Source of the DNA: a virus | IMG/VR virus record: IMGVR_UViG_3300048672_001051 | Location: 1 to 64,000 of that record | Length of the DNA stretch: 64,000 nucleotides | Strand: one strand, 5' to 3' | Part shown: piece by piece, positions 8,985-48,931 of the stretch | Layout: every line of letters starts with the position of its first letter | Numbering within the stretch: the first letter of the stretch is position 1 | Notes under the pieces: generated by a model | The model's database searches: none | Told to the model about the DNA's origin: nothing | What the model saw: the letters and a program-made list of their open reading frames with translations, nothing else | Translations under genes and position numbers: made by a program

Positions 8985-9746
8985 ATGAGTAACAGAGCTA
9001 AATTAGACGAATTACTTACGCTTAACCCAGATCTTAAATTTGACTCTAAACGTTTTGATACTTTAAAAGATAAAGATCAGAAAAAATTATTAAAAATGTT
9101 ATCCAGCGATGCCTCTAAAGGTAATGGTACTTATAAATTTACCGCAGGTGTTAATACAAACTTTGATTCAAAAGGTACAGCTGGCGTTTTAAACAAAGCA
9201 AAAGCTATGGTTAACCACACTATAGGGCCAAGTGCCGTAGAGGCCTACGCAAACTCTTTTGGATTTATGACCTCAGGTCAGCGTGCAATGAGTGCAAACT
9301 CATCAATGCTTGGTAAATTGTCCTACAAAGCAATACCTGCCTTTGGTGCATTTACAGCGCTATCTGGCGCTGTAGACGGTGAAGATCCGTTCGAGTATGT
9401 GGGTGAACAGATGGCCTTTGGTGGTGCTACGCAGGGTTATAGACTCGGCAGCACACTTGGAACTAGTACGATGGGTCGATTCGGTGCAGGCTTAGTTGGA
9501 GGAGCATTTATAGGCGCTGCTGTTTACGGAGGTTTTGCTGCGGCAAAAGACTTATCAAGTAACACTTCAAGTATAGCTAAAGCTGCCAAAAAAATGTACA
9601 CAAAAGAATTAAGTGTCGCATCATTTGACAATGATAAAACCTTAACAATGAGGCAAGCCGCATTAAGTAAGTTGAGTAATAGCGCGATAAACGACAGAGG
9701 ACTACTTTTAGGTAACGAAGCAATGATACTGCGAGGTTCATTATAA
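8985..9746 (+). CDS. Gly/Ala-rich hydrophobic virion-type protein
   Basis: 253 residues, not recognised. Residues ~108-190 are rich in Gly and Ala (KAIPAFGAFTALSGAV, GRFGAGLVGGAFIGAAVYGG), a glycine-zipper-like pattern seen in membrane-active or ejected phage proteins. The C-terminus ends in MRQAALSKLSNSAINDRG followed by GNEAMIL, a compact helical tail. The start ATG directly follows the previous stop and the stop overlaps the terminase ATG by one base, so it is translated with the packaging genes. A role in capsid content or genome entry is conjecture. Confidence 0.6.
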   Translation: MSNRAKLDELLTLNPDLKFDSKRFDTLKDKDQKKLLKMLSSDASKGNGTYKFTAGVNTNFDSKGTAGVLNKAKAMVNHTIGPSAVEAYANSFGFMTSGQRAMSANSSMLGKLSYKAIPAFGAFTALSGAVDGEDPFEYVGEQMAFGGATQGYRLGSTLGTSTMGRFGAGLVGGAFIGAAVYGGFAAAKDLSSNTSSIAKAAKKMYTKELSVASFDNDKTLTMRQAALSKLSNSAINDRGLLLGNEAMILRGSL

Positions 9747-32029: not shown

Positions 32030-32518
32030 TTGACTGAACAAATTAGACGCAAACAGCCACCAGCTGCAGCAAAACCTGTACAAGAGCCTGAAGCACTTCC
32101 AGAACATATTCAACAACTGTTAGATGAAGAAAATTCTAAAGACGCTGAACTCCAAGATCTTGTAGACAAATTAAAAAGTTTTGATAAAGAGTCTCCTGAC
32201 CTTACTACACTCAAACACTGGGAGAGTAAATATGGTAAAGTGTATTTATCAAAAATACATGAAGATGAGCCTAAATTCTTCCTCTGGCGCTGCCTATTAA
32301 GACTTGAGTGGAAAGAACTTTTAGGTTTAAATGTTAATGATGATTACTTACGCCAAGAGTCTATTATTAAAAAATGCTTACTATATCCAAATCCATCGCA
32401 CGACTTTATTTACACAACAGGCGCAGGTACACTACCAACTCTTGAAAAACAGATCATGTATAAATCTGGATTTGTAAGTACTGATGAAGCTTTATCTCGT
32501 ATAAGTGTGATTGTCTAG
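32030..32518 (+). CDS. Tail assembly chaperone, first
   Basis: 162 residues from a TTG two bases after the previous stop. After a Pro/Ala/Glu-rich start it has LKHWESKYGKVYLSKIHEDE, FLWRCLLRLEWKELLG, and KKCLLYPNPSHDF then GTLPTLEKQIMYKSGF, the pattern of gpG/gp24-type chaperones that hold the tape measure during tail assembly. It lies immediately before its partner and the tape-measure candidate. Confidence 0.65.
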   Translation: MTEQIRRKQPPAAAKPVQEPEALPEHIQQLLDEENSKDAELQDLVDKLKSFDKESPDLTTLKHWESKYGKVYLSKIHEDEPKFFLWRCLLRLEWKELLGLNVNDDYLRQESIIKKCLLYPNPSHDFIYTTGAGTLPTLEKQIMYKSGFVSTDEALSRISVIV

Positions 32519-32519
32519 T

Positions 32520-33041
32520 ATGTTTAATAAATCCGAAAGTGTATTATTTGGTATCAACAGAGCAGTAATAGACTTAAATGGATTTTATGTAGTCTCAACT
32601 AATTGTGAAATATTTGAAAATCCTCGGTTAGTTGTAGACCTTTTAAGCCCACAAGAACTTAAACGCTACGTAAATCTATCTGAGTATTCTGTCACGGCGG
32701 AGTATGAGACTCAACAGACAATTGTGCAGGATAAACTTGTAAAAATATTCGAACACGATGGTAGTAAGTTAGACTTAAACTTAACTCCAGCCGGTGTTGT
32801 CGAATTAATAGCTGAAAGTATTGCAAATAAGTCTTGCGACTATTTAAGGCATGCCCAACGAAACTACGATTTAATTGCAGAAGAAACTTTCTTTGTAGAC
32901 CAAATGTGTGCCATAGTTTCGTACTACATGAATACAAGTTACGACATTGTAAAAACGTTACCTATTAATGAGATATTTACACGCTACGCTGTCTGCCAGA
33001 AAGCATTTCCTAACCAAGTACAACCTATAACAGAAGATTAA
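32520..33041 (+). CDS. Tail assembly chaperone, second (candidate)
   Basis: 173 residues from ATG 32520, one base after the preceding stop; a TTG at 32511 in the same frame is an alternative. Many phages make the second chaperone part by ribosomal frameshifting from the first; here it has its own start and no slippery heptamer was found near the junction. Sequence is helical at the centre with LTPAGVVELIAESIANKS. The role is inferred from the place between chaperone 1 and the tape-measure candidate. Confidence 0.5.
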   Translation: MFNKSESVLFGINRAVIDLNGFYVVSTNCEIFENPRLVVDLLSPQELKRYVNLSEYSVTAEYETQQTIVQDKLVKIFEHDGSKLDLNLTPAGVVELIAESIANKSCDYLRHAQRNYDLIAEETFFVDQMCAIVSYYMNTSYDIVKTLPINEIFTRYAVCQKAFPNQVQPITED

Positions 33042-33043
33042 TA

Positions 33044-36000
33044 ATGGTTAATAAATACGATGGTAGTCAAATTGACTACGAAGCCTATATGGATTACAAA
33101 GGGCGTCAAAAAGACCCTGATCCATATTCAGTAACTTCTAGCGATATTTATCTTAAAAAGAAAAATGAACAAGAATCAGAGATAATGTCATCTCTGATTA
33201 TGGGTGCAGGTTATGCAGCCTCTGCGGCTGCAGCAGCCCACTATGTTAATAATAATCAAACAGCTCTGGAGTTACTAAATAAACTCCCAGGCAATGATAA
33301 CTTGGACAAAAGACTAAGGTTTAACAGAGCTGCTAATAACACTTTTGAAGGCATCGAACCAAATTTTAATGGTTCACTACGCCCTGTATCTAATATACTA
33401 CAGTCAACTCTTCTTAATCTAGAAGAGTTATCCCCCCTCCATATTTTAAAAACACTCCAACTCTCAAGCGCTGCAAGCTTATTTACAGCTAATGTTAATT
33501 TAGCCGAAGACGTACATATCAGTGGTGATGTAGTAAATAACTACAACGACTACGTACAAAAATTGCTAAAAGCACAAGGTAACCGTGAGCTGACCAGTAA
33601 TGACGCTAGGAATGGTTTTATTTTAAGAGACGGTAAGTTGTATGGAGTTACATCTAATGGTTTAATAGACTTGAACGATATTGCTTTAAATAAAGCTAGA
33701 ATAGTTCATACAACATTAGATATAGGTGGCAACAGATCTCCAAACAGGATATTTGAGAAGTACTCAAATATTTACGGAGCAGCGTTCGATAGAGAAGCTG
33801 CAGACAAAGCTAACCTAATGTTTGTTGGCGCTAGAGACACTGCAAGTTTACTTACAGATTGGACTAGAGCTTACGGTAGGTATGCTATGGAGATTGGCTA
33901 TAAAACTTTAGATAACCCTGTAGCCGGATTTGAAGAAATATTAAATATGACAGGCTTGGGTGATAGTAAATTTGTTAATAATAAATACTACCAAGCAATT
34001 AAGAATAAATTAAATATTAGTTTAGGTACTGGCGGCGCTTACGATTTAAGTACAAGAGAGTCTCTTAAAATAACTGCTAAGAACATAGCAGTAAAATCTG
34101 CAGCTTTGTATGTTGGTTATAATATTTTGAATAGCGGTCTGAGTGCCATTACTGGCGAGGAGAATCCATATCATCAAGGATTAATTTCTGGTCTTGCGGC
34201 ATCTTACGCTAATATGAGTGTTGGTTTTGCTAAGCTATGGTCCGACAACTTTCAAGATTATAAAAATTCTCAAGAAGCTGCGGCAGAAGGTTCTACTTCG
34301 CTACTAGCACTTGCAGGACTGCCACTTGCTGGCGCTATGCTAGGTGCTAACACGGCGTTTGCTCAACGTATGTACCATACTAAGAAACATGGCATGCTGA
34401 GCGCTGCGACGCATTTTGGAACTGAGCGTACATTTAAAAGTGATAAAATTTTTAGCATGCTAGGGCTAGCTAAAGAAGAAAAGATCCTTAATAGGTATGC
34501 TAAGATAGGCGCACTAGCTGGCGGGCTGTTAGCCTTACCATTCTTACCTGGAGCTTTGGTTGGTAAGTCATCAGATGAGCTTAAAGCTGAGTACAGTGGT
34601 GAGAAAGAAGTAGCTGTAAAAGCTAATAGATATTGGCTAGCTGGCGGTACTGCGTATGAAGGTGAGAATGTTAAATACTTTAAAAAACATATTATCGCTG
34701 AAACTATAGCTAATGCTAGAAATAAAACATATTACGAGTCAATGTCTCAGAAAAGAGCTATGGACCCAATTTTTAGTCCACTAGCTTATTTAAAAAATCC
34801 TTATGCGCGTGAAGAGGCTACAAAAGAATCTATGCCGTATCCTGTATGGGGTATGAACGTTACTTATGGGTCTTTCTTTGGCGAAGCTTTTCAAGGGACT
34901 TTAGGTCAAATAATAAAGCCAACTGTAATTAATCCAGAATTTTTAAAAAATTATGTGATTAGTAAAAAAGATATATTTAGCCTTGAAAATAGTTTAATTA
35001 AAAAAACTTTAAGTACTTCAGAGTCTGATAATGATAACCAAGTTTCCGATGGGTCGATAGCTAATGCGGCAGCTGAACAAGATAAGTTGAAACGAGGCGC
35101 TCGTAGCATATTTTCAAAGTTAGATGAAGATTATGTAACACAAACCTCCGAAAAATCTCCGGATAAGTCTATGATAAAGACTGGTGATATGCTGCGAAAA
35201 GAATCTGCAGAGATAGACCAAACTAAAATAGCTTCATCTGCTGCTTATGTAGCCGCAGCTGACTTTACAGGTCTCAAAGGTTTTACAAGCTCTATGATTC
35301 TTGGAAGTGCGGGTATAGATCCAACTGACTATAAAAAACAATTAGCAATGTCCGGCGATGCTAATAGCGCACAAAGCCAAATACAAGATTTAAATCTTGG
35401 AGATATGGCAGGGCTTGGTGAATTCCAAAGACGTATCGTTCCAACTTCTGCGGCATCGAAGAAAGAATATATCAACCCAATGAAAAATAATATGCCGTCT
35501 TGGCTGCCAAGCGATGAGTCTAAGTACTATTTAGACTTTAGTATAGGTAACCCTTACGACAAAATAGAAAATGGCGCAGTAAGGCTGCCTGGGCGTGGGT
35601 TTGCAGCCCTAAACCCTACTGTTAAAAACTTAGATCCTGAAAAATATCCACTAGTTTATCAATATAAAATACTAGCAGATGTCGCAGCAGGCAGTCCAGA
35701 ACAGATTGCAATGCGGAATTACTTATTATCTAATAAAGACCAACTATCTGAAACAGAGCAAAAGATATTTTTTACAAGTCTTGAGCAAACTGAAGCTCGT
35801 AAAGAGAAACGTAAATTTCATGAATATACTTCAAAATTTGAAAGAGCAAATTTTAGCGCTTTTCAAGATGTTCAGAGTAGTCTTTGGAATACTATTACGC
35901 ATAATTCTGAAAGTGTATTAGAGCCTTTAACACCTTTTAGACCAGCCGCTAAGTTCCTACATAAAAGAACGGCTATTGAGGACTATGTAAAGACTCAATT

Positions 36001-36979
36001 GCAAGGATCAGACGTGGGTATATGGACCAACCCGTATAGCCACTTTATAGAGCCTGCTATAAACAGGACTTATGGGTTATTACCTGGAGTACAAAAGCCG
36101 GCAGAAGCTTCTGAAAAAGAAGCTGTAGACGAATATTTTGATAAATTATCTTTACTTAGAGCTATAAAAATAGGTAACATTAATAGTGCTAAAAAAACTG
36201 TAATAGCATCTAACTACGCAGGTATTAGAGATAAAGAGTCTATGGATAAGCTGAGAGCAGCTTTACCAGAAAATCAAAGACTTTACTTAGAATCTTTTGC
36301 TAAAGAAAAAGATGTAGATAAAAGAAAACAAATAATAGCTATGCTGCCAACAGATATACGGCAGGCTTATGCGTCTATTTGGGCCAATATAGATATTGCA
36401 GACGCAGCTAAAGCAGCTGGCAGAGATCCTTTAAAAGCTATAGAAGATAACTATTATAAAGATACAGAAACTCTTAAAAAAACTCTAGGCATAACTTTAG
36501 ACAAAAACACTAAAGATAGAATTAAAAAATCTACCGAAACAATTACCGACCGTGGTGAAAAAGCGTCAGCTGTTAAGGAAAAAGAAGCTGAGGCAATACG
36601 TCTAGAGGCAGCGAGGCGTGAAGCACAGGCTTATGTAGACAAACAGACAGGCACTCCAAGTCAAAATTGGAAGGGCTGGGATCCACGCTTAACAACAGCC
36701 GATATAAAATTAAGAACACTAAGTATTGGCCGAGAAGACATTCACAAGTACGGTTACTGGAAATCTGATCTAGAGCGTAATGAGCGGTTAGTAGGTTTAG
36801 ACTCAGAGAGAGAAGTTATTAGAGACTTTGATAGAATAAAACAAGAGTTAAAATCGCAACAACAGCGTAAAGCTAGAATAACAACCGAATTGAATAAAAA
36901 CGGCTTCAATACATCTAAAATAGATATAGTGCCAGCGGCACAAAATACAGTCAGAATACAGGACAGAAGAACTAACTAA
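33044..36979 (+). CDS. Tape-measure protein candidate
   Basis: 1311 residues, following the chaperone pair as a tape measure should. It has hydrophobic/Ala-rich segments (MGAGYAASAAAAAHYV near residue 53; LLALAGLPLAGAMLGAN; LAGGLLALPFLPGALVG) and a long charged helical C-terminus (EKEAEAIRLEAARREAQAY). A Trp/Tyr-rich middle (RYWLAGGTAYEGENVKYF, residues ~528-545) is unlike a simple coiled-coil tape, so it may also act as an ejected protein. No peptidase or lysozyme domain was seen. Which of this and the next gene is the true tape measure is not settled. Confidence 0.5.
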   Translation: MVNKYDGSQIDYEAYMDYKGRQKDPDPYSVTSSDIYLKKKNEQESEIMSSLIMGAGYAASAAAAAHYVNNNQTALELLNKLPGNDNLDKRLRFNRAANNTFEGIEPNFNGSLRPVSNILQSTLLNLEELSPLHILKTLQLSSAASLFTANVNLAEDVHISGDVVNNYNDYVQKLLKAQGNRELTSNDARNGFILRDGKLYGVTSNGLIDLNDIALNKARIVHTTLDIGGNRSPNRIFEKYSNIYGAAFDREAADKANLMFVGARDTASLLTDWTRAYGRYAMEIGYKTLDNPVAGFEEILNMTGLGDSKFVNNKYYQAIKNKLNISLGTGGAYDLSTRESLKITAKNIAVKSAALYVGYNILNSGLSAITGEENPYHQGLISGLAASYANMSVGFAKLWSDNFQDYKNSQEAAAEGSTSLLALAGLPLAGAMLGANTAFAQRMYHTKKHGMLSAATHFGTERTFKSDKIFSMLGLAKEEKILNRYAKIGALAGGLLALPFLPGALVGKSSDELKAEYSGEKEVAVKANRYWLAGGTAYEGENVKYFKKHIIAETIANARNKTYYESMSQKRAMDPIFSPLAYLKNPYAREEATKESMPYPVWGMNVTYGSFFGEAFQGTLGQIIKPTVINPEFLKNYVISKKDIFSLENSLIKKTLSTSESDNDNQVSDGSIANAAAEQDKLKRGARSIFSKLDEDYVTQTSEKSPDKSMIKTGDMLRKESAEIDQTKIASSAAYVAAADFTGLKGFTSSMILGSAGIDPTDYKKQLAMSGDANSAQSQIQDLNLGDMAGLGEFQRRIVPTSAASKKEYINPMKNNMPSWLPSDESKYYLDFSIGNPYDKIENGAVRLPGRGFAALNPTVKNLDPEKYPLVYQYKILADVAAGSPEQIAMRNYLLSNKDQLSETEQKIFFTSLEQTEARKEKRKFHEYTSKFERANFSAFQDVQSSLWNTITHNSESVLEPLTPFRPAAKFLHKRTAIEDYVKTQLQGSDVGIWTNPYSHFIEPAINRTYGLLPGVQKPAEASEKEAVDEYFDKLSLLRAIKIGNINSAKKTVIASNYAGIRDKESMDKLRAALPENQRLYLESFAKEKDVDKRKQIIAMLPTDIRQAYASIWANIDIADAAKAAGRDPLKAIEDNYYKDTETLKKTLGITLDKNTKDRIKKSTETITDRGEKASAVKEKEAEAIRLEAARREAQAYVDKQTGTPSQNWKGWDPRLTTADIKLRTLSIGREDIHKYGYWKSDLERNERLVGLDSEREVIRDFDRIKQELKSQQQRKARITTELNKNGFNTSKIDIVPAAQNTVRIQDRRTN
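33174..33199 (+). repeat. 10-bp perfect stem, 6-base loop
   Basis: AATCAGAGAT / ATCTCTGATT around AATGTC, 130 bases into the tape-measure candidate. A further 9-bp stem (AACTCTTCT/AGAAGAGTT) is at 33406-33429. Confidence 0.7.
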
Positions 36980-36981
36980 AT

Positions 36982-39900
36982 ATGAAACTAGACAGAGAAT
37001 TATTACTTACAGCTATTGGTGGCTTAACAGGCGCAGCAGCTGTAGACAGCGAAGGTGACTTCTTTGCAGCCCCTGTAGGGGCTGCAATAGGAGCTACAGC
37101 TGCAAATTATCTTGACATCAAGACGATTGACCCTGGTCGCTTAATACAAAATAATCGCACATTGCAGTTAAGCCAAGATAAGCGACTAACCAGAGCTGAG
37201 CAGTTAAGAGAGTCTTTGACTGAATTGTATGGTGCTGGCGGAAATACTCCAGTGCATCAGTATGCTAGTCAAGTTTTAAGTAATTCTTCTGCAACTGAGT
37301 ATGACTTATCAGTAGCACTGACTCAGTTAAAGTCTACAGGCGAGTTAAGCATGCTAACAAATCCGCAAGTTAAAAGTGAGCGCCTAAGTGTTACAAAAGT
37401 TGCGCCAAATGCTAGTGATTCTGTTAAATTAGCCGCATTTGAAAACAAACTGAAAAGCCTTGGGTACACTGGAAAAAATTTAACAGATAAGCTTGCTTTA
37501 TTTGAACCGTTAATTTCAAATTCTAAAGGTTTAATTATAAACGGAGACTCTATAACTCTAGGCGAGCAAGGCACTATACGACTTACTGACAGTTTAGGCG
37601 GGAATATAACCAACGGTTCTTATTACGCCACACAAAGACTTAATCCTTTTGCTAAAGCTGCCGCAGACGGAATGAATGTTAAAAGTATGGCGGAAGCTGT
37701 AGGTATAAATTTAATTGATGCTGCTAATTCTGATGTTTTAAGAGAGACGCTTGAGAGAGGTTTTAAACAAGGTTTAAGGCCGGATGACATGCAAGCTATG
37801 CTAGCACAGAGTGACTTAGGCTTAAGTTCTAAAGTACAAAACTTTGCAGAAACTGCTTACCAATATAGTGAAGATGGTACTAGCGCCCTAGTTAAAAATA
37901 GTGCTACAGCAAGATCAGAATTGTCTGAAATAGGTATAAATAAAAGAATTTTAAACGAGAGTGATTATGGCGTAGCTTTAAACATAGATACACGTACCAA
38001 TGGCCTAAACACTAAAAATCCTTTTAAGAGACTAAACACTAACTCTCCAGATGGTGTTAGGATATCTGACTACCTGAAGACAAGAAACTATTTAACTGCG
38101 CAGAATGGTGGCTTTATACAAGAGGGTGTTAAGACTGATAAGTACACTGTAATGTCAACAGCAAAGCCTAAGCCTCTGGCTAACGCTATGGGTATGATTG
38201 AGCGTAATGCGTACACCACGGGGACTAGAGGCGATCTGCCGGGTATAAATAAAGCAAGCTTGCCTGCCGGTGTTAATGCAACAGCTGACAGTGAAGTTTT
38301 GACTGCTATGTCAAAACTTGGACTGATGCCTGAGGAGTTTAGAGGTTCAGTCCCACTTAAACGTATTACCGTCGATGCTGAGCAATTTAATGCAGTAGCA
38401 GACCGTTTAGGACTACCTGCAGATGTTAGGCTAGGAGATGGCTCTGCATTGGGCAGTAGAACGCTATTAAATCAGTTTGAACATAAAGAAACTCAGCGTT
38501 TTATCATACCTAAAAATTCAAAAGGTGAGTACGCAGTAAGCTCTGCTGTTCAGACGTTCATTGACAGCAAACTGTCAGAGGGTGTAGGTTTTACAGGTTT
38601 AATGACCATACCTAACTTAGATGAAAGATCTAAAGATTTAGAAAGAATTAAGAAACTGGAGGTTGGTTATACTCCAGAAGATATTGCTGTCTTAAAAACA
38701 AATGTTGAGAATTCTCAACAAGCTCGTAAAAAAGTTAAAGATTTATTTGTAAACGGCTTACCAAAAACAATTAGCGCAGAAGAATCTGAGTTTATAAAAA
38801 ATGCGCCAATAGCTATAGCTTTTGACCAAGAAAAATTTAACGCTACAGTTAGAAGCAGATTTAGTGGCCAAGGGACGATCACTCCAGATATACTGGACAC
38901 CTTAGAGCAACACTTACGAAAAGGTGTTGCTCTGCCAGACTTAGGACTGCAAGGAAAGGGTGCTAGAAAATTAAGACAAGCTATTGCAGAATATAAACAA
39001 GACTCCGATTTAACAAATTTAAAAAATTATCATAAATCGAAGATAATGTCTAATGTGGATTATAATGATGCTTCTGCAGTTTTAAAAGGAGCTGAGAATG
39101 GAACTCTGCCGCAAGTTACAACTGAACAGTTAGCGAAAGCTAAGCAGCAGGTGCAAAACTATTATGCTAGAATGCTTCAACTTACATCGCGTAAATCTGA
39201 TGTGCAGCATAAAGAATATTCAACTGGCATGTATAACAAACTCACAGCTATTATGGGTGAAGATGTTGTCGACACATCTAAGGTTATGGAATTATTCCAA
39301 GAGCATAACAGAGTTGCTGCGGTTCAGCCACTAGCTAATCACGAGGTTTTAGGTTTAGACGCTAAAGGCTCGCCTATAAAAGTATCGACTGAGTTTAATA
39401 AATGGAGATTCACTGGAGCTAGAGAAGTAACTGACGACTTCGGAGTTACAAGCCTAGAACTTAACTTAGAAGGCTATAGCCGAGTAGGGTCCCAAGCTAG
39501 GGTAAAATCTTTTGGGGTTAGTTCTAAACAAGCCGTAGGCATGCTCAACCAAGATATGTTTGACGTAGCTTATGCAGTGGCTGATCAATTAGAGCGTGGT
39601 CTAATTCCAGCAGAGGGCACGCTAGTTGATCCGCAAGCTTTGACTACTGATGAGAAATTAATACGTCTACTTAGCGGATTCCCCGTACCTCCTGACAAGA
39701 CAGATGGAGAGTTGTTAGGCGAGTCAATTTTAGACAGGACAACAAAGTACAATCTGATGGTCGGTAAAAATACAAGTATTATTGTAGATGCTAGTGATAC
39801 TCAAGCTTCACTTGTTAAGACACTACAAAATGATTTGAAAGCTGGTACCCTGACAACTGGCATAAACAAAGGTTTAAATGAAGCTGCTATTAGTAGTGTT

Positions 39901-42474
39901 GCTAGCCAGACATTTGATAGTAGTTCAGCTGCCAGATTAGTCTCAGCACTATCTCAAAATAAAGATGGGGCTGGCGTACTGCACTCTGCCTATTACGATG
40001 CAGCAAGAGTCGCTTATAATAGTGGTAAGTACAATACAACTGCCGGAGCTTCTTCAAGAATGTTAGACTTTTATACAAACATTGGATTTAGTCCGGTTGG
40101 TCATGCGAACGGTGAAGCTAGCTTAGCAGCATTTGGTCAAGCATATCATGAACATGTGGGTAAATATTTTAACGGGTCTGCTGGATTTAACTCAGTTGAT
40201 ATGTTTAATAACCCTGCGATACAGTCTTTTTTTAATGCAACTAATGAAACTTACCATTGGAGTAGTCTTGACAGTCGAGCTACCTACACATACGGTGCAA
40301 GATCAGGCGATAGAGGTATGTCTTGGAATGCTCAGAAAAATTTAATAAACTCTGGCTATGCACCAGAGGTGTTAGACTTATTTGGCACGCATGACGCAAA
40401 TGCTGTCTACGATTTAAAAGCTTTTAGCAACACTATGAAAAAATCTGACTCAACTATAAATAGTTTTATTGCAGATTTACCTCAAGGTAAATTTACAGAG
40501 CTAATGCAAGACTTACGCGCAGCTAAACATGAAGACTATGCAGATATTTTTACTAAACATGGCGCAAACCGCGAGCTTGTGCAAGGAGACTTTATAAGTT
40601 ACGCGCTACCCGCAAACGAGTTTGGAATTGAAACTTTACCACTTTATAAGCAGTCTACTTATCGAGTTGGAACGTATGTAACTCCAGAAGGTCAAGAGAT
40701 GCGTAAAAACTTATCTACGTTACCTTTACAAATAATTCGCGCTAGTGAAGCAGCAGCTAGAGACCCTAGCGAGCTTATGCGTGAGAGACATCTTAAAGTT
40801 TATCAAGACTTGCTGACAGAGTATACTTCGGAAATATCGAACACTATTCAAAATTCTAGCGGCAATATTCTTAAAGAGTCTACTAAACGTTATGTTGAAA
40901 ATTCTTCATACTCTATTGTTGCGCCAGCAGAAGGTCATATAAAAGACCTTGCAATTGAATATAACTTAACTGGCAAAGGTCTGCCAACAGTAGGTGTAAG
41001 TGAGGAAGGTGCTGTAGAGCGTTTAAGACTTTTTGGAGTAGACACTGAGCACAAAGATTTTAACCTTGAAAATCATATGGACGCAGATGGCAGATTGTTG
41101 GACGCAGATGGTAACAAAGTGTTTTCGATACAATCTAGAGAACCAGCTTTCTCGACAAACTCTACAAGACTAGTAAATTACACTGTCATACCAGATGCAG
41201 AAACTGCAACTAAAAATACTGTATTCCACAGTGCAGCTGACACTCATTATTCTAAATTAATGTTTGGAGACTTTGACTTTGACCACGTATTTGAATATTT
41301 TCCAAAAAGAAACTTAAGTGCAGAAGAGTACGCTAACATATTAGCTATAGGTGAGAATCAAGCTAAACTTAGTAGAAGTTCAATCGAGTTGGCTCAACAC
41401 TTAGGTGTTAAAGGGTCAGCAAAAGATATGAAAAGCTTATCAGACTTTTTAGACGAAGCGTCTAAGTCAGGGGCCACTGGTACAGAACTAAATACTGTTG
41501 CAGCAGAATTGTATGCTCAGCACTTAGAGGGTTCTGCTGTGAAAGCTGGTCAACGTAAATCGTTGACACCAACTATAACAAATTTTGCAAACTCTATATT
41601 TAAGTCTGTTGAAAAAGCATCAAGTCCTGGCACTCAATTGTTTAACGACCAAGCCACTTTAATGCACTATTTAGTCGAAAATATGATTAAGTCGCAGCAC
41701 ACTAAAACTGGTGCCCAAAATAACTCTGTAAGTGAAGTGGAGAAATTAGTAAGTGCTCGTGAGAAGTTTTTAAAAAATCCTTCTGCGTATGGTGCGCAAT
41801 ATACAGATGCATTAGATCAGCTTTTACATTCTTTCAGTGGTGATATGAATGACAGTTTAAAAGCACGGGTGACTTCAGCAGTAGATGGCATTAAGCAAGC
41901 GGAGATGATACATGCACCGAGTTTAGCTGGCAGTGTGCAACTACCAACAGATTTTGGTAGAGCAGTTGCAGCAACTGCTGGAGAGTTTAGCGACATAGTT
42001 GAAAAACTAGATGATTTTGTACATCACGCTAAAATTTTACCAGTAGACGAAGGCGCTGTAAATATTGCTAGAACTGCCAGTTTCGGGTATGATGAGATCA
42101 TGTCGAACATTAAAACAAATGTTGCTAATAATAAAGTAGTCTTGGCGTTAGCTGCCGCTGGTCTTGTAGGTACAAGTATAATTACTCAAAAGTCACCAGA
42201 CTTTAAGACTAACACTAAAGCAACAGCTAACCCGTCTTCAATGATGATGGCACCTTCTAAACAAACATATAAAGATAGGAAGGAGCAAGACACATTAAAC
42301 GGTTTCAACTACCAAACACAATCTAACTACTTAACTAATAAAGACTTTGTAAAACAAGCTGTTTCTGTTCAAGGGCAGTACACTAAAGCAAAATCTGAAT
42401 TAGATAATTCAATTAAGAGAAGTGTATTTGGTAATAATATATCTAACGTAAGAATAGAAAGTTACTATGAGTGA
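36982..42474 (+). CDS. Candidate single-chain double-psi beta-barrel RNA polymerase (virion cargo)
   Basis: 1830 residues. Motifs matching the beta'-type catalytic barrel occur in order and with near-bacterial spacing: KRYVENSSYSIVAP (R1303; compare KRVDYSGRSVI), GLPTVG, SREPA (R1386; compare NRAPT), and FGDFDFDHV (D1430, D1432, D1434; compare NADFDGDQM). R1303-R1386 is 83 residues and R1386-D1430 is 44. An earlier segment, GSQARVKSFGVSSK (K842, K849), could be the lysine pair of the beta-type barrel. This beta-then-beta' order on one chain is known for YonO and crAss-like virion polymerases. Hydrophobic Gly/Ala stretches at the N-terminus and near residues 1710-1730 suit packaging and ejection. 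Placed between tape-measure candidate and hub; overlaps the hub by 8 bases. Assignment is by motif reading only. Confidence 0.6.
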   Translation: MKLDRELLLTAIGGLTGAAAVDSEGDFFAAPVGAAIGATAANYLDIKTIDPGRLIQNNRTLQLSQDKRLTRAEQLRESLTELYGAGGNTPVHQYASQVLSNSSATEYDLSVALTQLKSTGELSMLTNPQVKSERLSVTKVAPNASDSVKLAAFENKLKSLGYTGKNLTDKLALFEPLISNSKGLIINGDSITLGEQGTIRLTDSLGGNITNGSYYATQRLNPFAKAAADGMNVKSMAEAVGINLIDAANSDVLRETLERGFKQGLRPDDMQAMLAQSDLGLSSKVQNFAETAYQYSEDGTSALVKNSATARSELSEIGINKRILNESDYGVALNIDTRTNGLNTKNPFKRLNTNSPDGVRISDYLKTRNYLTAQNGGFIQEGVKTDKYTVMSTAKPKPLANAMGMIERNAYTTGTRGDLPGINKASLPAGVNATADSEVLTAMSKLGLMPEEFRGSVPLKRITVDAEQFNAVADRLGLPADVRLGDGSALGSRTLLNQFEHKETQRFIIPKNSKGEYAVSSAVQTFIDSKLSEGVGFTGLMTIPNLDERSKDLERIKKLEVGYTPEDIAVLKTNVENSQQARKKVKDLFVNGLPKTISAEESEFIKNAPIAIAFDQEKFNATVRSRFSGQGTITPDILDTLEQHLRKGVALPDLGLQGKGARKLRQAIAEYKQDSDLTNLKNYHKSKIMSNVDYNDASAVLKGAENGTLPQVTTEQLAKAKQQVQNYYARMLQLTSRKSDVQHKEYSTGMYNKLTAIMGEDVVDTSKVMELFQEHNRVAAVQPLANHEVLGLDAKGSPIKVSTEFNKWRFTGAREVTDDFGVTSLELNLEGYSRVGSQARVKSFGVSSKQAVGMLNQDMFDVAYAVADQLERGLIPAEGTLVDPQALTTDEKLIRLLSGFPVPPDKTDGELLGESILDRTTKYNLMVGKNTSIIVDASDTQASLVKTLQNDLKAGTLTTGINKGLNEAAISSVASQTFDSSSAARLVSALSQNKDGAGVLHSAYYDAARVAYNSGKYNTTAGASSRMLDFYTNIGFSPVGHANGEASLAAFGQAYHEHVGKYFNGSAGFNSVDMFNNPAIQSFFNATNETYHWSSLDSRATYTYGARSGDRGMSWNAQKNLINSGYAPEVLDLFGTHDANAVYDLKAFSNTMKKSDSTINSFIADLPQGKFTELMQDLRAAKHEDYADIFTKHGANRELVQGDFISYALPANEFGIETLPLYKQSTYRVGTYVTPEGQEMRKNLSTLPLQIIRASEAAARDPSELMRERHLKVYQDLLTEYTSEISNTIQNSSGNILKESTKRYVENSSYSIVAPAEGHIKDLAIEYNLTGKGLPTVGVSEEGAVERLRLFGVDTEHKDFNLENHMDADGRLLDADGNKVFSIQSREPAFSTNSTRLVNYTVIPDAETATKNTVFHSAADTHYSKLMFGDFDFDHVFEYFPKRNLSAEEYANILAIGENQAKLSRSSIELAQHLGVKGSAKDMKSLSDFLDEASKSGATGTELNTVAAELYAQHLEGSAVKAGQRKSLTPTITNFANSIFKSVEKASSPGTQLFNDQATLMHYLVENMIKSQHTKTGAQNNSVSEVEKLVSAREKFLKNPSAYGAQYTDALDQLLHSFSGDMNDSLKARVTSAVDGIKQAEMIHAPSLAGSVQLPTDFGRAVAATAGEFSDIVEKLDDFVHHAKILPVDEGAVNIARTASFGYDEIMSNIKTNVANNKVVLALAAAGLVGTSIITQKSPDFKTNTKATANPSSMMMAPSKQTYKDRKEQDTLNGFNYQTQSNYLTNKDFVKQAVSVQGQYTKAKSELDNSIKRSVFGNNISNVRIESYYE
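37064..37087 (+). repeat. 11-bp perfect stem, 2-base centre
   Basis: TTGCAGCCCCT / AGGGGCTGCAA around GT, 82 bases into the polymerase-like gene, in codons for a Gly/Ala-rich segment. G+C-rich and tight, it should form a stable RNA hairpin. Confidence 0.8.
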
Positions 42475-45400
42475 TACAATAAATACATCATATAGCCAAG
42501 AACCTGGTGAAATTTTAGAAATAAATGATATAAATTTGGAGGTTCTTCCGAGTGATATCGCTATGTATGCTGATAACGCAATATATGAAGACGTATTTAT
42601 TCGTTCAAATGGTGCGTTTGCATTTAGGTCAAAACATTCACACTCTAAAATAATTTTAACTCTCCCGATCCCGCTTATTGCGGGTTCGGGCAAGTACAGT
42701 GCACTAGAAAAAAGTGCGCACGATAATGGCATCCGTTTAATAAATGAATTAAATAGCTACCCTTTTTGTTTTGTTAAATCATCACGTATTAGCTCGTACA
42801 TCGGTACATCAATTGCCAGCGAATATTTAGTATTTGGTGTGGATGAACTTCGATTAGTTATGGACTTAAATGTGCCTAATATCTTGTTTGCTGAAATAAC
42901 ATTACTCTATCATGATCATACAAATTATACTTCAAGTTTTTTATTCAGAGAAGATTTTGACACAGAGTCTGAGAGTGGCGCTGCAGTGTCTAGACCTGCA
43001 GATTCGAAACTATTTGTGCAGTACATGGACGCGCTACAAAACTCTAATAAAGCGTTTAATTACAATCAATTTATATCTGAAGTTAAAACAACTGTAAAAA
43101 ATTACGGTGAAGAGTCGACTTTAGGTCTTGTTAACCTGCTGACACCGTACTTTTTCGATAAAGACGATCCAAGTCTTAAACTAGGCGATGGTGAAGTTTA
43201 TGAAGAATTTAGCCTGTCTTCTGCAAACCTTGCAGAGCATGTCTTATCTACATCAATACTGCAAACTGCCAACGGAGATGATGAGTCGGCTACAATACGG
43301 CCATCGACTAAAAAAGAAAATGGTTCAAAAATAGTTGCTGCATATCGTGGCGACGTGCAGTTATTTAGTAATATTAACGTAGTAAATGCAGTAATATGTT
43401 CTCGTAAAAATTCATTTGCAAAGCAGTTTATTGGCAGTCACCAACACCCATGCTTACAGTATATCGGGAGATATCCTGCAAGAGTTGAGATTAAAACAAT
43501 GTTTAACTCTATGAACTCTTATAAGATGAATGTTGAGTCTGTTACGGCAATGTTTAAAACACTGTTAAACAAGATTGACAGTAATAACATGACGTTCCCA
43601 GAAGCTAACGCATACAATCACATGAAAGTACGATCGCTGCCTACAAGTTTGCTGCTAATTGAAAATATCATGCCAGATCAATGCACCATAAGCGCATCAT
43701 CAGATAACAAAGATATAGATGTTATAGATTGTACTTTTATAGAAAGTTCTTTAAAAGAATTTATAGATCCAAAAGAAGTTAGTGTAAAAGACTTAATAAA
43801 AGTTGCATCCGGTGCAGATACTTATAAAATAATTGCTGAGTACATAAAAGTCCTAGCTAACGCTAAAGATTTTAATACTGCAACCCACTCGACTTTGGTA
43901 AGATCTTTGTATGTAATTTACGACTACTTGCGAGAAGAAAACTCTGCATCACAATATAAAGTTCAGTATAGTAAAGATTTGGATAGCACTGCACTAAATA
44001 ACTATAAAATGAAGTCGGACAAAGAGGCTCGAGCGATAGCGACGGGTAGAGCCCAATTAAGTTTAGTTGCAGATATAAAAGATCCTATAGCATCAGCTAA
44101 TAATATTAAAAATAGTTTACAATCTTTAAGTATTTATCTGATTCCGAAGCTAAACAACCGCAAAGTTTTAGCGACTAATGAGGCAACAAACCTTATGAAA
44201 GTCTCTGACGATTTCATTGTCACTGACAAATCTGGAGCAAAAGTCGACGCATCTCTTCGTGATATATATAGCTTTAATGGAACTGCTGAATCAGCTTTAG
44301 ATAGTTTTGCTCTAGACCTAGGTGCATTATATAATGTTGGTGATAGTGTAGCTAAACAAATGACTACGCTAGGAACATCAGATACAGTAGCTAAAAATTT
44401 GAATGCACAGTTTATATCGTCATTCACAGGTGAAAACTACAAAGATTTGTCTTTAGATTTATTGTATAGCGATGTAGAGAACCGCCGTAAATTAACACCG
44501 TTTTTCTTCTTAGTGTGCAGACCACATTTTAGTAGAGAAGAGATGTATACAGCATTTAAACTTTTAGACAATGAAACTATAAATCAAATACAAGATAAGA
44601 TAAATTTACAAGTAACTCGAGAGTATGGATTAAGTGCCGCAACAGATTTAGGTACTAAATTTCTAAAAATGGGTGAGTATAGTTATAAGCCAGGGTCTGA
44701 GACTCAGTTGAACGGCTCTGGAACTACTAAGTATTTTGCTAGCGCAGAAACTAATGATAAGTACGATGCTTTAATTACAAAGTATGCAGACATGTATGGC
44801 TTAGAACCATCTCTTGTGAAAGCGGTAATTGAAACAGAGTCTCATTTTAATCCAAACATAGTTTCACCATCTAATGCAAAAGGCTTGATGCAACTTATTG
44901 ACACAACTTTTGCAGCTCAAAAAGTTGGTAGTAATCCTTTTGACCCTGAGCAGAACATTAATGCTGGCTGCAAGTATTTAAGTGAAGTAATTAAGAAAGC
45001 TAATGGCAATGTTAAAAATGGTTTAAGTTTTTATCACAGCGGACCTGCGGCGGATTTAAATAACTTAGGCCCTGCTGGAAGAGCTTACGCGCCAACTGTG
45101 TTTGAAAATCAAAAGAAATATTCAAAGTCACTGACAAATTCGACAACACCTAATAGACTTAAGCCGGATCAAAATGTAGCTAATCCGTTCCTAGGTACAT
45201 CTAATGGATTTACAAGCAATACGCAACCAATTATCAACGCGTCGGCATACAGAGATGCGTCAGAATTTAAAGTTGATAGTGTAGTTGACGGAGATACATT
45301 TGATGCTACAAGGCAACTTGACGGTAAAAGTCTAAGAGTTAGAATAAAACTTTTAGATACGCCTGAATCTGTAGGTATCTTTAACGGCACTTCTTTGCAA

Positions 45401-48400
45401 GCTCAGTGGTATGGCGCAGAAGCTAAACAAAAGCTCCGCAGTTTATTACCAGTTGGAAGTATAGTTAAGATAACTGGACTTGAAACAGACACAACATATA
45501 GCGAGAGAACTCTCGGCGTAGTAATTCGTGCTGATAAGTTAGATGTAGCTTTAGAGATGATTAAGACTGGTCATGGCTTAACTACGTCTGGTGTAAACAC
45601 AGCTTATACTCAAGCGCAAGCTAAGGCTAAAGCAGACCAAGTTGGGATGTGGGCAGAGCCTGCTAGAGTAATGCCTCCAGCTCAATTTAGAGCAGCACGT
45701 AAAAAAGCCGCAGAAGAGAGTGGCAAGAAGGAACCAGAACCGATTGTGCGCGGCTCAGAAGAAACTAAAAAAGATAACTCCAACTTAAAGAATACTTATG
45801 CACCTTTGAAAAAATCTTCACCTGTCACAAGTCCATATGGTTGGAGAACTATATTTGGAAAACAGCAATTCCATTACGGAGTAGACTTTGGCGTACCTAT
45901 AGGTACTCAAGTAGTTTCTGCTGCTTCTGGTACCGTGTCTAGAGTTTTTTCACAAGCTAGTGGTGGAGGTCTAATTGTAGAAGTTGCGCACGATGCTAGA
46001 GGATTTGTTACGCAGTATATGCATCTGAGCAAGGCTCTTGTATCAGCAGGCCAACGAGTAAAAGCTGATGAAGTAATTGCATTGTCTGGCAATAGTGGTG
46101 GACGAAGCACTGGGGCTCATTTACACTATGGTGTATCTTATAATAAAACGCGCATAAACCCATTTATGACCGTAACACTTTCAACGATACCTACAGACAC
46201 TCCACTAATAGCGGGAGATTACATCCACCCTGACGCCACTAAGAGTGCTGGACAGCGTGGCGGTGAGACTGATGGTGGTGCTGGCTTGAACTTGTACTTA
46301 GCAGGTGGCTCGAAAGAAGCTGATGTTAACGTGTTTTATGAGTTGCAAAAAAGTGAGTTTGGAGAATTGTACTCTGTATACAATGAAAAACTAATGCTTG
46401 AGAAACATTTAGAGCAGTTATTGTATAATTATAACTACACAATGGACACAGCATTTCCAGTAATAAAAGCTTATATAACTGTTGGTAATGAAAATGATGA
46501 GCTTATAGAAGGATCCACAATCCCAACTAGTCAGTATTTTGAAGTGAACGGACTTCAAAATTTTAAGATGCAATGTAACGACGATAACAACCCTGTTGAC
46601 GTTGCTATGTTTACATTAGCTAACCCATCTTTTTTACAAACAACAGGTGCAGTCGGTTTAACAAAGCAGTACGAAATTGACACAAGCCAACCGGGAACTG
46701 AGTATAATTTAAGCTTTATTGAAAATAAAATTAGATTACGGCCAGGCATGAAGTTTCACATAAGAGCTGGCTATGGTAATAACCCTAACAACTTAAAACC
46801 AATATTCAATGGAATGATTACAGATATTTCATCACCTATGAGTATGACTTTAAATATTGTCGCTGAAAGTTTTTCAAGAGAGTTGTTGTATACTGAAATG
46901 TCTTCTGATCAACCTAGAGACTTAACTGGAAACGATAACGGCTCAACCGGATATCTTTTAGGGCAGTCTATGTTGCAAGAAAGCATAACCCACTTTGGGA
47001 AGTCTTTTAGTGCACTTCGACGTATAACAAAAGTGTTAAACCCATTTAATGGAACGTCCACATATGACGGCGAAGTTCGAGATCCTGAAGCTAAAGCTAT
47101 GTTGGCGCCACTTAGCCCTACATCGTATATACCGCCAATGCTTACCATATTTAGTGGTTCTGGTTTTAGACAACGACGATTTACAAACTTGTACTCAGCT
47201 GACATAGAGAAAGTTCACGACGAGTTTGAAACTGGTATTATTAACAGCATCTCAAGGTCAATTGATTGGACTAGAAAAAGTAGTTATGGGTATTTTGTAT
47301 ATGGAACAACTCCGTGGCAAATTGTTAAGGAGATGGAACATAGACATCCAGGCACATTAGCCAAACCTCTATTGTATGAAGACCGGATGACAATGTTTTA
47401 CGGTACAAAAGAGCAATTATACGTGGCTAGAGATTTGAATCCTGCATATATGGCTCAGATTTCTTTAAAAACAACTTTACAAAAATTATCAGCATTAGCT
47501 CCAGAGGCGTCCGACGCTTTAGCGAAGAACATTGATTATGCGGAAGAACGTCCTAAGCGCTTAGAGCCAGCTACAGGCTTCCATATGCTCAGCACAAAGA
47601 CAAATATAATATCTAACGGTCTGGGTATATCTAATAAGTATAAAACGAGGATTAACAGTATATATAGCAAATCTGTCTCGGACTTTAAGAAAATTGATGG
47701 CGAGAATCCTGCAGAGGTAGTTCAAATAGATGACAACTTAAATCCTTGGGAAGTTCGTGATAAAACTATCGCTATGGGTGGTTGTAATAGCAGGTATATG
47801 GCTTGGCTGTATGGCACTCAAGAGTTAAAATCTGAGTGTGAAACAATGTATGGCGGTAAGATAGTACTAGTTGGCGACCCGACTATAAAAGCTGGCGACT
47901 ATGCTTTTATATACGATAACGACCGTAACATGGCAGGTATTATAAAAGTACGTGAATGCCAACACAATTTCAATATGGAGTCTGGGTTTACAACTGAGAT
48001 AGTTCCAGGACAGTATGTCGAGTGTGCAAATTTTGTTTGGTCTTTATTTTTCTTAAAGCTAGGCTTTATGTGTAAAATGACTTCAATTAAATTAGAGTTA
48101 TCTCAAGTAGATACTTTAACAACCGCGTCTATTGCACAAGAACTTGATTACTACTATAATTATATATACGAGAAAAATACGAGCATGTCTGATGCAGCTA
48201 TAGCTGCAATACCAGTAGCTGCCTACACAACATTAGGCACATTCTTAGCTTACTCCGCTATTTATACAAATGGTAAGAGCAACTTTGTAAAAGCTATGCT
48301 GATAAATGGTGCAGATTTAGCAACTAGCGTGGCTAAGAAAGGCTATGCAAAACTAGCCACTGTTCAGTTTAAAAACGGATTTTCACTTGGAAAATATTTA

Positions 48401-48931
48401 GCAGGTGGTTCTAGTACAGCTGTAAAGCAAACAAAGATACTTGCCCGCATGTACCAGCAAGTTAATGGTGTTGGTAAGATAACAAAAACAGCAATTAAAA
48501 TAGCTGGTTATAAGTTATATGTGCCATTTAAGATACTTACTAATCCAGCACTACTAAGAGTTAGCACACGGCTACTAGGCTTAGCTGCCACCGGCTTGCG
48601 TGGCTTATTAGTAGTTGCAGCGTCTAACCCGATAGGCGCACTGATAACAATTATAGGTGAATTCTTATTACAAATTGTAACATCAACGATAGAGAAAAAT
48701 ATGCTGACACGGCAACCACTAATCTTCTTCCCAATAAGTTGTATGGGTAAACCATACGTGGGCGGTATGACTGGCGTTGTAGACAATACATATTTTGAAG
48801 GCTTAATGCTCAATATCAAGAGAAACTTAGTGCCTATTGAGAAGATGTTACAAGATACTCAAATACGGACACAGGGTACGCTGGAAAGTGATATTGCTGG
48901 ATATTTTAGGGATTTTTTAAAAAGTGATTAA
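42467..48931 (+). CDS. Tail hub with transglycosylase, SNase and M23 domains
   Basis: 2154 residues. Residues ~765-886 are an SLT-type transglycosylase: VIETESHFNP (catalytic E791), SPSNAKGLMQLI, ISFYHSGPA-like FYHSGP. Residues ~935-1065 are a staphylococcal nuclease: VVDGDTF (D941, D943), RVRIKLLDTPE and YSERTLGV give the D19/D21/R35/D40/E43/R87 equivalents, so it should be active. Residues ~1115-1245 are an M23 peptidase: HYGVD (H1136, D1140) and GAHLHYG (H1218, H1220). Residues ~1360-1560 look like a gpD/gp27-type hub (FEVNGLQNFKMQC; IFNGMITDIS). The C-terminus has hydrophobic helices (LAATGLRGLLVVAAS). The hub would pierce and digest the wall during entry; the nuclease's target is unknown. 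Fusion of all three enzymes is unusual. Confidence 0.82.
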   Translation: MSDTINTSYSQEPGEILEINDINLEVLPSDIAMYADNAIYEDVFIRSNGAFAFRSKHSHSKIILTLPIPLIAGSGKYSALEKSAHDNGIRLINELNSYPFCFVKSSRISSYIGTSIASEYLVFGVDELRLVMDLNVPNILFAEITLLYHDHTNYTSSFLFREDFDTESESGAAVSRPADSKLFVQYMDALQNSNKAFNYNQFISEVKTTVKNYGEESTLGLVNLLTPYFFDKDDPSLKLGDGEVYEEFSLSSANLAEHVLSTSILQTANGDDESATIRPSTKKENGSKIVAAYRGDVQLFSNINVVNAVICSRKNSFAKQFIGSHQHPCLQYIGRYPARVEIKTMFNSMNSYKMNVESVTAMFKTLLNKIDSNNMTFPEANAYNHMKVRSLPTSLLLIENIMPDQCTISASSDNKDIDVIDCTFIESSLKEFIDPKEVSVKDLIKVASGADTYKIIAEYIKVLANAKDFNTATHSTLVRSLYVIYDYLREENSASQYKVQYSKDLDSTALNNYKMKSDKEARAIATGRAQLSLVADIKDPIASANNIKNSLQSLSIYLIPKLNNRKVLATNEATNLMKVSDDFIVTDKSGAKVDASLRDIYSFNGTAESALDSFALDLGALYNVGDSVAKQMTTLGTSDTVAKNLNAQFISSFTGENYKDLSLDLLYSDVENRRKLTPFFFLVCRPHFSREEMYTAFKLLDNETINQIQDKINLQVTREYGLSAATDLGTKFLKMGEYSYKPGSETQLNGSGTTKYFASAETNDKYDALITKYADMYGLEPSLVKAVIETESHFNPNIVSPSNAKGLMQLIDTTFAAQKVGSNPFDPEQNINAGCKYLSEVIKKANGNVKNGLSFYHSGPAADLNNLGPAGRAYAPTVFENQKKYSKSLTNSTTPNRLKPDQNVANPFLGTSNGFTSNTQPIINASAYRDASEFKVDSVVDGDTFDATRQLDGKSLRVRIKLLDTPESVGIFNGTSLQAQWYGAEAKQKLRSLLPVGSIVKITGLETDTTYSERTLGVVIRADKLDVALEMIKTGHGLTTSGVNTAYTQAQAKAKADQVGMWAEPARVMPPAQFRAARKKAAEESGKKEPEPIVRGSEETKKDNSNLKNTYAPLKKSSPVTSPYGWRTIFGKQQFHYGVDFGVPIGTQVVSAASGTVSRVFSQASGGGLIVEVAHDARGFVTQYMHLSKALVSAGQRVKADEVIALSGNSGGRSTGAHLHYGVSYNKTRINPFMTVTLSTIPTDTPLIAGDYIHPDATKSAGQRGGETDGGAGLNLYLAGGSKEADVNVFYELQKSEFGELYSVYNEKLMLEKHLEQLLYNYNYTMDTAFPVIKAYITVGNENDELIEGSTIPTSQYFEVNGLQNFKMQCNDDNNPVDVAMFTLANPSFLQTTGAVGLTKQYEIDTSQPGTEYNLSFIENKIRLRPGMKFHIRAGYGNNPNNLKPIFNGMITDISSPMSMTLNIVAESFSRELLYTEMSSDQPRDLTGNDNGSTGYLLGQSMLQESITHFGKSFSALRRITKVLNPFNGTSTYDGEVRDPEAKAMLAPLSPTSYIPPMLTIFSGSGFRQRRFTNLYSADIEKVHDEFETGIINSISRSIDWTRKSSYGYFVYGTTPWQIVKEMEHRHPGTLAKPLLYEDRMTMFYGTKEQLYVARDLNPAYMAQISLKTTLQKLSALAPEASDALAKNIDYAEERPKRLEPATGFHMLSTKTNIISNGLGISNKYKTRINSIYSKSVSDFKKIDGENPAEVVQIDDNLNPWEVRDKTIAMGGCNSRYMAWLYGTQELKSECETMYGGKIVLVGDPTIKAGDYAFIYDNDRNMAGIIKVRECQHNFNMESGFTTEIVPGQYVECANFVWSLFFLKLGFMCKMTSIKLELSQVDTLTTASIAQELDYYYNYIYEKNTSMSDAAIAAIPVAAYTTLGTFLAYSAIYTNGKSNFVKAMLINGADLATSVAKKGYAKLATVQFKNGFSLGKYLAGGSSTAVKQTKILARMYQQVNGVGKITKTAIKIAGYKLYVPFKILTNPALLRVSTRLLGLAATGLRGLLVVAASNPIGALITIIGEFLLQIVTSTIEKNMLTRQPLIFFPISCMGKPYVGGMTGVVDNTYFEGLMLNIKRNLVPIEKMLQDTQIRTQGTLESDIAGYFRDFLKSD
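42664..42690 (+). repeat. GC-rich inverted repeat, 11-bp arms, one mismatch
   Basis: CCCGATCCCGC / GCGGGTTCGGG around TTATT, 197 bases into the hub gene. Ten of eleven positions pair. Distinctly G+C-rich against its surroundings. Confidence 0.7.

Follow-up and report, generated by a model that had tools for sequence, protein, structure and literature searches.

The stretch of viral DNA analysed here (the window, 64 kb of a virus record of 229,656 bases) carries within its tail gene block, at positions 36982-42474 of the forward strand, a single unbroken open reading frame (ORF) that runs from ATG to stop and encodes a protein of 1830 amino acids, the opposite strand being rich in stops. A first-pass annotation made from the sequence alone had read this gene as a virion RNA polymerase of the double-psi barrel type, as its motifs follow the order of the bacterial β′ core motifs KRVDYSGRSVI, NRAPT and NADFDGD. 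All of the quoted motifs, residue numbers and gaps are exact when the translated ORF is re-read: KRYVENSSYSIVAP is followed by GLPTVG (residues 1333-1338), SREPA and GDFDFD, with spacings of 83 residues from R1303 to R1386 and of 44 from R1386 to D1430 (Table 1). The analysis below places the protein in a syntenic family with a predicted RNA polymerase core fold and finds its catalytic triad intact.

Table 1. Features of the candidate polymerase gene, its neighbours and related genes; positions are those of the window unless preceded by a locus label.
Feature	Position	Strand	Basis
Candidate virion RNA polymerase, single-chain and of two-barrel type, encoded in the tape-measure slot (1830 amino acids, aa)	36982..42474	+	Open frame; ME3 gp036; positional orthologues with RYP[ST]...DxDGD
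Residues 1113-1825, BLAST-alignable to ME3 gp036	40318..42456	+	24% identity, E 4e-18
Residues 1239-1456, profile-aligned to the β′-type barrel of the Bacillus family	40696..41349	+	hhalign 44.0, E 0.00065
KRYVENSSYSIVAP (1302-1315), counterpart of β′ KRVDYSGRSVI and of family K.xMxxSxxGxFKL	40885..40926	+	MAFFT register
SREPA (1385-1389), counterpart of β′ NRAPT and family RYP[ST]	41134..41148	+	Invariant in ME3; R and P in 14/14 rows of alignment A9
GDFDFD (1429-1434), candidate Mg-binding DxDxD triad	41266..41283	+	Three Asp kept in ME3 (GDHDQD) and in 14/14 rows of alignment A9
K842...K849, candidate β-type lysine pair of the first-pass annotation	39505..39528	+	Invariant in ME3; without profile support
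Tail sheath	27992..30010	+	Orthologue of ME3 gp029
Two small genes at the tail-chaperonin position	32030..33041	+	Match to ME3 gp033 and gp034 in position and size only
Upstream giant tail protein, rival tape-measure candidate	33044..36979	+	Orthologue of ME3 gp035; large proteins of Bacillus phages and phage-plasmids also orthologous
Baseplate hub with lytic transglycosylase and M23 peptidase domains	42467..48931	+	Orthologue of ME3 gp037 and of the family hubs
Family members with an N-terminal exonuclease-like domain	L019:20115-27419, L021:13672-20922, L022:20181-27047, L023:20172-27095		

Across collections of phages, plasmids, viruses and genomes, only one close relative of this protein turned up: gp036 of the Acinetobacter phage vB_AbaM_ME3 (ME3), annotated as a hypothetical protein of 1603 amino acids, which matches it with 24% identity over 713 residues (E 4e-18). 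ME3 and the window have in common the order sheath, tube, chaperonins, giant virion protein (gp035), gp036 and hub, and gp036 is thus an orthologue by position as well as by sequence. When the window protein, the hub, the terminase and the upstream protein were used as queries, viral and genome scans returned only ME3, plus one weak partial terminase match. The full pairwise alignment (25% identity overall) leaves SREPA, the three aspartates, K842 and K849 invariant; SREPA is one of its two longest invariant runs, and residues 1301-1400 are its best-conserved block. The spacing from RxP to the triad is 43 in ME3 and 44 in the window, and where the window protein reads GDFDFDH, ME3 reads GGDHDQDQAAV, which resembles the bacterial NADFDGDQMAV. 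SREPA and the three aspartates of the proposed motif set are kept in ME3, whereas GLPTVG is not conserved and R1303 is replaced by leucine.

If the protein were an ordinary tape-measure or other tail protein with chance motif matches, such motifs should be easy to come by, and in their loosest form they are: a scan for REPA...GDxDxD, or E-P-A...GDxDxD, returned among the matches listed ME3 and many chance matches in unrelated ORFs. However, an invariant RxP followed within 60 columns by an invariant DxDxD arose in 0/5000 column shuffles of the window/ME3 alignment, which argues that the motif order itself is not due to chance.

Searches via the better-conserved upstream neighbour of the gene brought up two phages, MTATph1 of Moorella and KLEB27-3 of Bacillus, along with plasmids from Bacillus, Paenibacillus, Cytobacillus and Cetobacterium. 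Since both the upstream protein (E ~1e-17) and the hub (E ~1e-24) are orthologous across these genomes, the gene that lies between them is a positional orthologue of the window gene. In KLEB27-3, Cytobacillus, B. halotolerans and Paenibacillus this slot encodes a protein of ~2300-2430 amino acids with RYP[ST] followed by DxDGD, annotated as 'structural protein' in KLEB27-3 (gp034). The signature of the family (RYP[ST], 38 residues, DxDGD; about 20 members) was used as a fixed-spacing motif pattern to call members in IMG/VR, and 14 of the 19 matches were judged true on the strength of BLAST comparison with the members from plasmids and phages. The arginine of RYP and the three aspartates are kept in 19/19 aligned family sequences, and FK...G.[KR].T is conserved, in all members that cover it, at the site expected for the β-type lysine pair. 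One member matches Pfam RNA_pol_Rpb1_2 (E 0.00027). Against the PDB, up to E 10, the sole match of the family profile is the β′ subunit of the PhiKZ non-virion polymerase (PHIKZ055); its E-value is only 0.13, and the alignment is exact at HRNPTLQ...NADFDGDQL, in register over both motifs. The slot proteins of MTATph1 and of the Cetobacterium plasmid contain neither RYP[ST]...DxDGD nor any DxDxD, and the feature is therefore not universal in the slot. HPREPG of MTATph1 was considered as a polymerase motif and rejected, as it belongs to an exonuclease-like domain of that protein (L018:18333-25689); a transposase gene lies directly downstream of it, before the hub. Further giant viral ORFs of 2100-2600 amino acids with RYP...DxDGD were also observed (L030:2-7810, L038:3-6413 and L044:2-7363), and for two of these, L038 and L044, hhalign finds a match to the family core at the motif; from their sequences all three are possibly further giant polymerases.

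Profile alignment links the window protein to this family. With hhalign, the window and ME3 sequences together align residues 1239-1456 to the β′-type segment of the family core with a score of 44.0 (E 0.00065), compared to at most 25.9 for 60 column shuffles and 18.5 for the reversed alignment. The register is unchanged when DxDxD is masked (29.8) and also when everything from SREPA onward is masked (27.2), and four other window/ME3 ortholog pairs gave E-values of 0.19-0.75. In 4/4 MAFFT options on the full cores R1303, R1386 and D1430 fall opposite the family motifs, and in alignment A9 the R and P of SREPA and all three aspartates are invariant in 14/14 rows. Another alignment, A7, put one motif out of place and was left out of the modelling. 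The sequence features of a two-barrel polymerase are accordingly found as follows: D1430, D1432 and D1434 are present, invariant in ME3 and aligned opposite the family DxDGD, and the R-x-P and K/R...S elements occur in order as SREPA and KRYVENSS, in the family register by both MAFFT and hhalign.

The fold of the family core was modelled with AlphaFold (L045, 1066 residues, 12 sequences), giving a mean predicted local distance difference test score (pLDDT) of 59.5, with values of ~70-87 across much of the barrel region. Foldseek found 532 matches to this model in the PDB at E ≤ 0.001, and 50/50 of the matches listed are largest-subunit chains of RNA polymerases (β′, Rpb1 and Rpa190 type), including those of AR9 and PhiKZ; the whole-chain template modelling scores (TM-scores) are low, as expected for a single-domain match. 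In a viral structure library the third match to the family core model is the ME3 entry A0A172Q021_2 (E 1.4e-13, 802 residues), which outranks annotated viral polymerases. We infer that this entry is part of gp036, as 801 + 802 = 1603 and no other examined ME3 annotation splits in this way. Two other entries match the family core model better than ME3 does, namely a giant protein (A0A7R7G2L5_2, E 1.6e-18) and a 'minor tail protein' of siphovirus ctnpt50 (A0A8S5SD80_1, E 6e-15); judged by these model comparisons, tail-associated polymerase folds may be more widespread. The first-pass reading of a double-psi-barrel RNA polymerase in the tail block is therefore supported by the syntenic family, the family fold, the structural match of ME3 and the in-register profile. 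An ordinary tail protein is decidedly improbable as an explanation: the window protein has no direct sequence or structure match of its own, but its profile stays in register even with DxDxD masked, its positional orthologues combine the canonical motif with a predicted polymerase fold, and ME3 matches that fold.

Several observations weigh against a polymerase. The window protein, alone or together with ME3, has no usable sequence match in Pfam, PHROG or the PDB; two Pfam matches of ~E 0.004 (an FDF domain over 1429-1504 and GMT-wHTH) fall below their cut-offs. The hhalign probability of window and ME3 against the family is 27%, which is modest alone. The glycine of DxDGD is phenylalanine in the window protein and glutamine in ME3, and profile alignment finds no placement for the second-barrel lysines in the window protein. 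K842 and K849, which had been put forward as these β-type lysines, are invariant in the window and ME3 but are without profile-alignment support, and because the invariance rests on two sequences the pair is weakly supported. The weakest point of the case is the failed model of the window protein itself, the structure prediction that had been proposed as the refuting test: its mean pLDDT is 47.5 and below 50 through the key segment, and it shows no barrels and no structural matches. As essentially two sequences cover most of its length, this model is uninformative rather than supportive.

If these gaps reflect decay, the protein would descend from a polymerase and now serve as a structural component of the tail, with the fold retained and the activity lost. 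Fast divergence, the replaced glycine and the unplaced lysines fit such a model, and the MTATph1 and Cetobacterium slot proteins imply that the lineage tolerates loss of DxDxD. However, although identity over the rest of these sequences has fallen to ~16-25%, the window protein, ME3 and every family row retain the three aspartates and the upstream R and P. This pattern indicates that the active site is under selection, and a loss of activity is unlikely. A two-barrel enzyme of other function, such as priming, the synthesis of DNA or synthesis from an RNA template on the incoming genome, is a more distant prospect still. The superfamily includes PolD and RNA-dependent polymerases, and in several Gram-positive-host members a DEDD 3′-5′ exonuclease-like domain (PolB-exonuclease and RNase_H_2 matches) is fused N-terminally to the polymerase core, which is unusual for a transcription enzyme. 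Against this, the nearest structural and sequence matches are large subunits of DNA-directed RNA polymerases, and a domain search detected no exonuclease-like domain in the window protein. Weighing all of this, we put the probability at roughly three in four that the 1830-residue protein is a single-chain two-barrel RNA polymerase in the tape-measure slot, most likely carried in the virion in the tail tube or hub.

The position of the gene bears on whether the proposed polymerase is also a ruler. The first-pass annotation had set the gene between a tape-measure candidate and the hub; judged by gene order, it instead sits where 0305phi8-36 has its tape-measure gene, orf146. In the GenBank notes for ME3, gp035 and gp037 are paired with YP_001429636 and YP_001429638, which leaves YP_001429637 for gp036. 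In 0305phi8-36, orf146 lies within a block of virion-protein genes and its description is that of a tape measure, with no polymerase role given, and the known polymerase of that phage, orf99, is a separate YonO/QDE-1-like gene in the right arm (PMC2147016). Window and 0305phi8-36 are alike in gene order and slot, and the sheath, the terminase, the giant protein upstream and the hub assign both to the same lineage; the slot protein there is known as a tape measure, and the likeness drawn here is one of gene order, not of orf146 sequence. The tape-measure position, after the chaperonins and before the hub, fits the 1830-residue gene, with a second giant protein encoded between the chaperonins and the gene.

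A fused protein, in which one chain is both tail-tube ruler and active polymerase domain as in gp96 of Thermus phage P23-45, would agree with the GenBank correspondence, and we regard it as a serious possibility that falls some way short of even odds. The polymerase may in this manner also act as the tape measure, wholly or in part. However, much of the chain is taken by the polymerase core, and the upstream protein of 1311 amino acids is also giant, is better conserved (40% identity) and is the one of the pair that contains a strong hydrophobic segment, and this product, not the 1830-residue protein, may be the tail ruler. The hydrophobic ends noted in the first-pass annotation are a weak feature: both ends are locally hydrophobic, with a glycine-zipper-like N terminus and VVLALAAAGLVGTSII near the C terminus, but no 19-residue stretch of the protein has a mean Kyte-Doolittle value >1.6. 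The hub that adjoins the polymerase gene is a protein of 2154 amino acids with both of its enzymatic domains in one chain, and a peptidase domain is also carried by the P23-45 tape-measure polymerase. Elsewhere in the window, the large terminase (9746-11941) has an apparent mini-intein in its ATP-binding loop (GRRC...HNCGKT) in common with ME3 gp013.

Single-chain polymerases of the crAss type are packaged in virions, and the YonO and crAss-like gp66-type enzymes can be likened to the window protein, by description, as one chain with a β′-type signature; YonO is not a tail protein, and both it and the crAss-like enzymes are of other lineages. The virion and non-virion polymerases of PhiKZ and AR9 share the β′-type barrel, as reflected in the PHIKZ055 profile match and the AR9 and PhiKZ structural matches, but consist of several subunits, whereas the candidate here is one chain. 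The closest known arrangement is that of P23-45 gp96, a tape measure with an active polymerase that transcribes the pre-early genes during DNA entry (PMC10770324). Both have a two-barrel signature in a tail protein of the tape-measure slot that is invisible to sequence profiles, and gp96, as a positive control, shows RNP, 38 residues and DFDGD, the spacing of the Bacillus family. In gp96, however, a polymerase of proven activity forms the N-terminal portion of a siphovirus tape measure of 5002 residues, whereas the window, from a jumbo phage of myovirus type, has a separate gene of 1830 codons with a spacing of 44, next to that of another giant tail protein. Comparison with gp96 by hhalign detected no sequence similarity (E-values of 0.21 for the family and 0.72 for window and ME3, not at the motif); the window protein would at most function like gp96, and no membership is claimed. 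To judge from sequence, the window protein is in effect a tape-measure-slot RNA polymerase with a gene of its own, whose recognisable homology is confined to its lineage.

Partly by analogy to P23-45, we infer virion location, ejection, transcriptional activity, early transcription and promoter choice for this candidate polymerase. In such a model it would be packed within the virion, in the tail tube or at the hub, and would enter the cell ahead of or together with the DNA; D1430, D1432 and D1434 would hold Mg2+ in its own active site, and it would transcribe the first phage genes without the host RNA polymerase. The phage record yielded neither a sigma factor nor another two-barrel polymerase, which is consistent with an injected polymerase. 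Outside the window, ten sites resembling AAAAGCAAAATGGTCTGTTATGAGG lie at 190,265-216,209 of the record (L010, L011), all on the reverse strand and mostly 23-106 nt upstream of small reverse-strand ORFs, with scores of 33-63 compared to a shuffled maximum of 8.3. By eye the motif is not an obvious sigma-70 site, and in the part of this region scanned sigma-70-like sites are no commoner than in shuffles; ME3 has no repeated intergenic motif like it. As a sequence, AAAAGCAAAATGGTCTGTTATGAGG is a candidate early promoter or other regulatory repeat.

More tentatively, the slot of the whole lineage of 0305phi8-36/ME3 jumbo phages and Bacillus-type phage-plasmids might encode a virion RNA polymerase, exonuclease-fused in the Gram-positive members, with the window enzyme reading the AAAAGCAAAATGGTCTGTTATGAGG promoter, although we hold this wider proposal to be doubtful. 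If true, tail-tube polymerases would be a recurrent design for transcribing incoming DNA, having arisen in at least two unrelated tail lineages. A search of open papers, with subscription papers and preprints outside its scope, found no earlier description of a polymerase in this slot, and a 2021 survey of jumbo phages mentions no such enzyme in this lineage: outside its group 1, the YonO-like polymerases of 0305phi8-36 and c-st are its sole entries (PMC7824862). A polymerase here would explain how gene expression starts in a widespread and almost unannotated lineage of jumbo phages, would reveal a polymerase core in a protein listed as a tape measure since 2007, and would turn the polymerase-in-tail arrangement of P23-45 from a single case into a recurring strategy.
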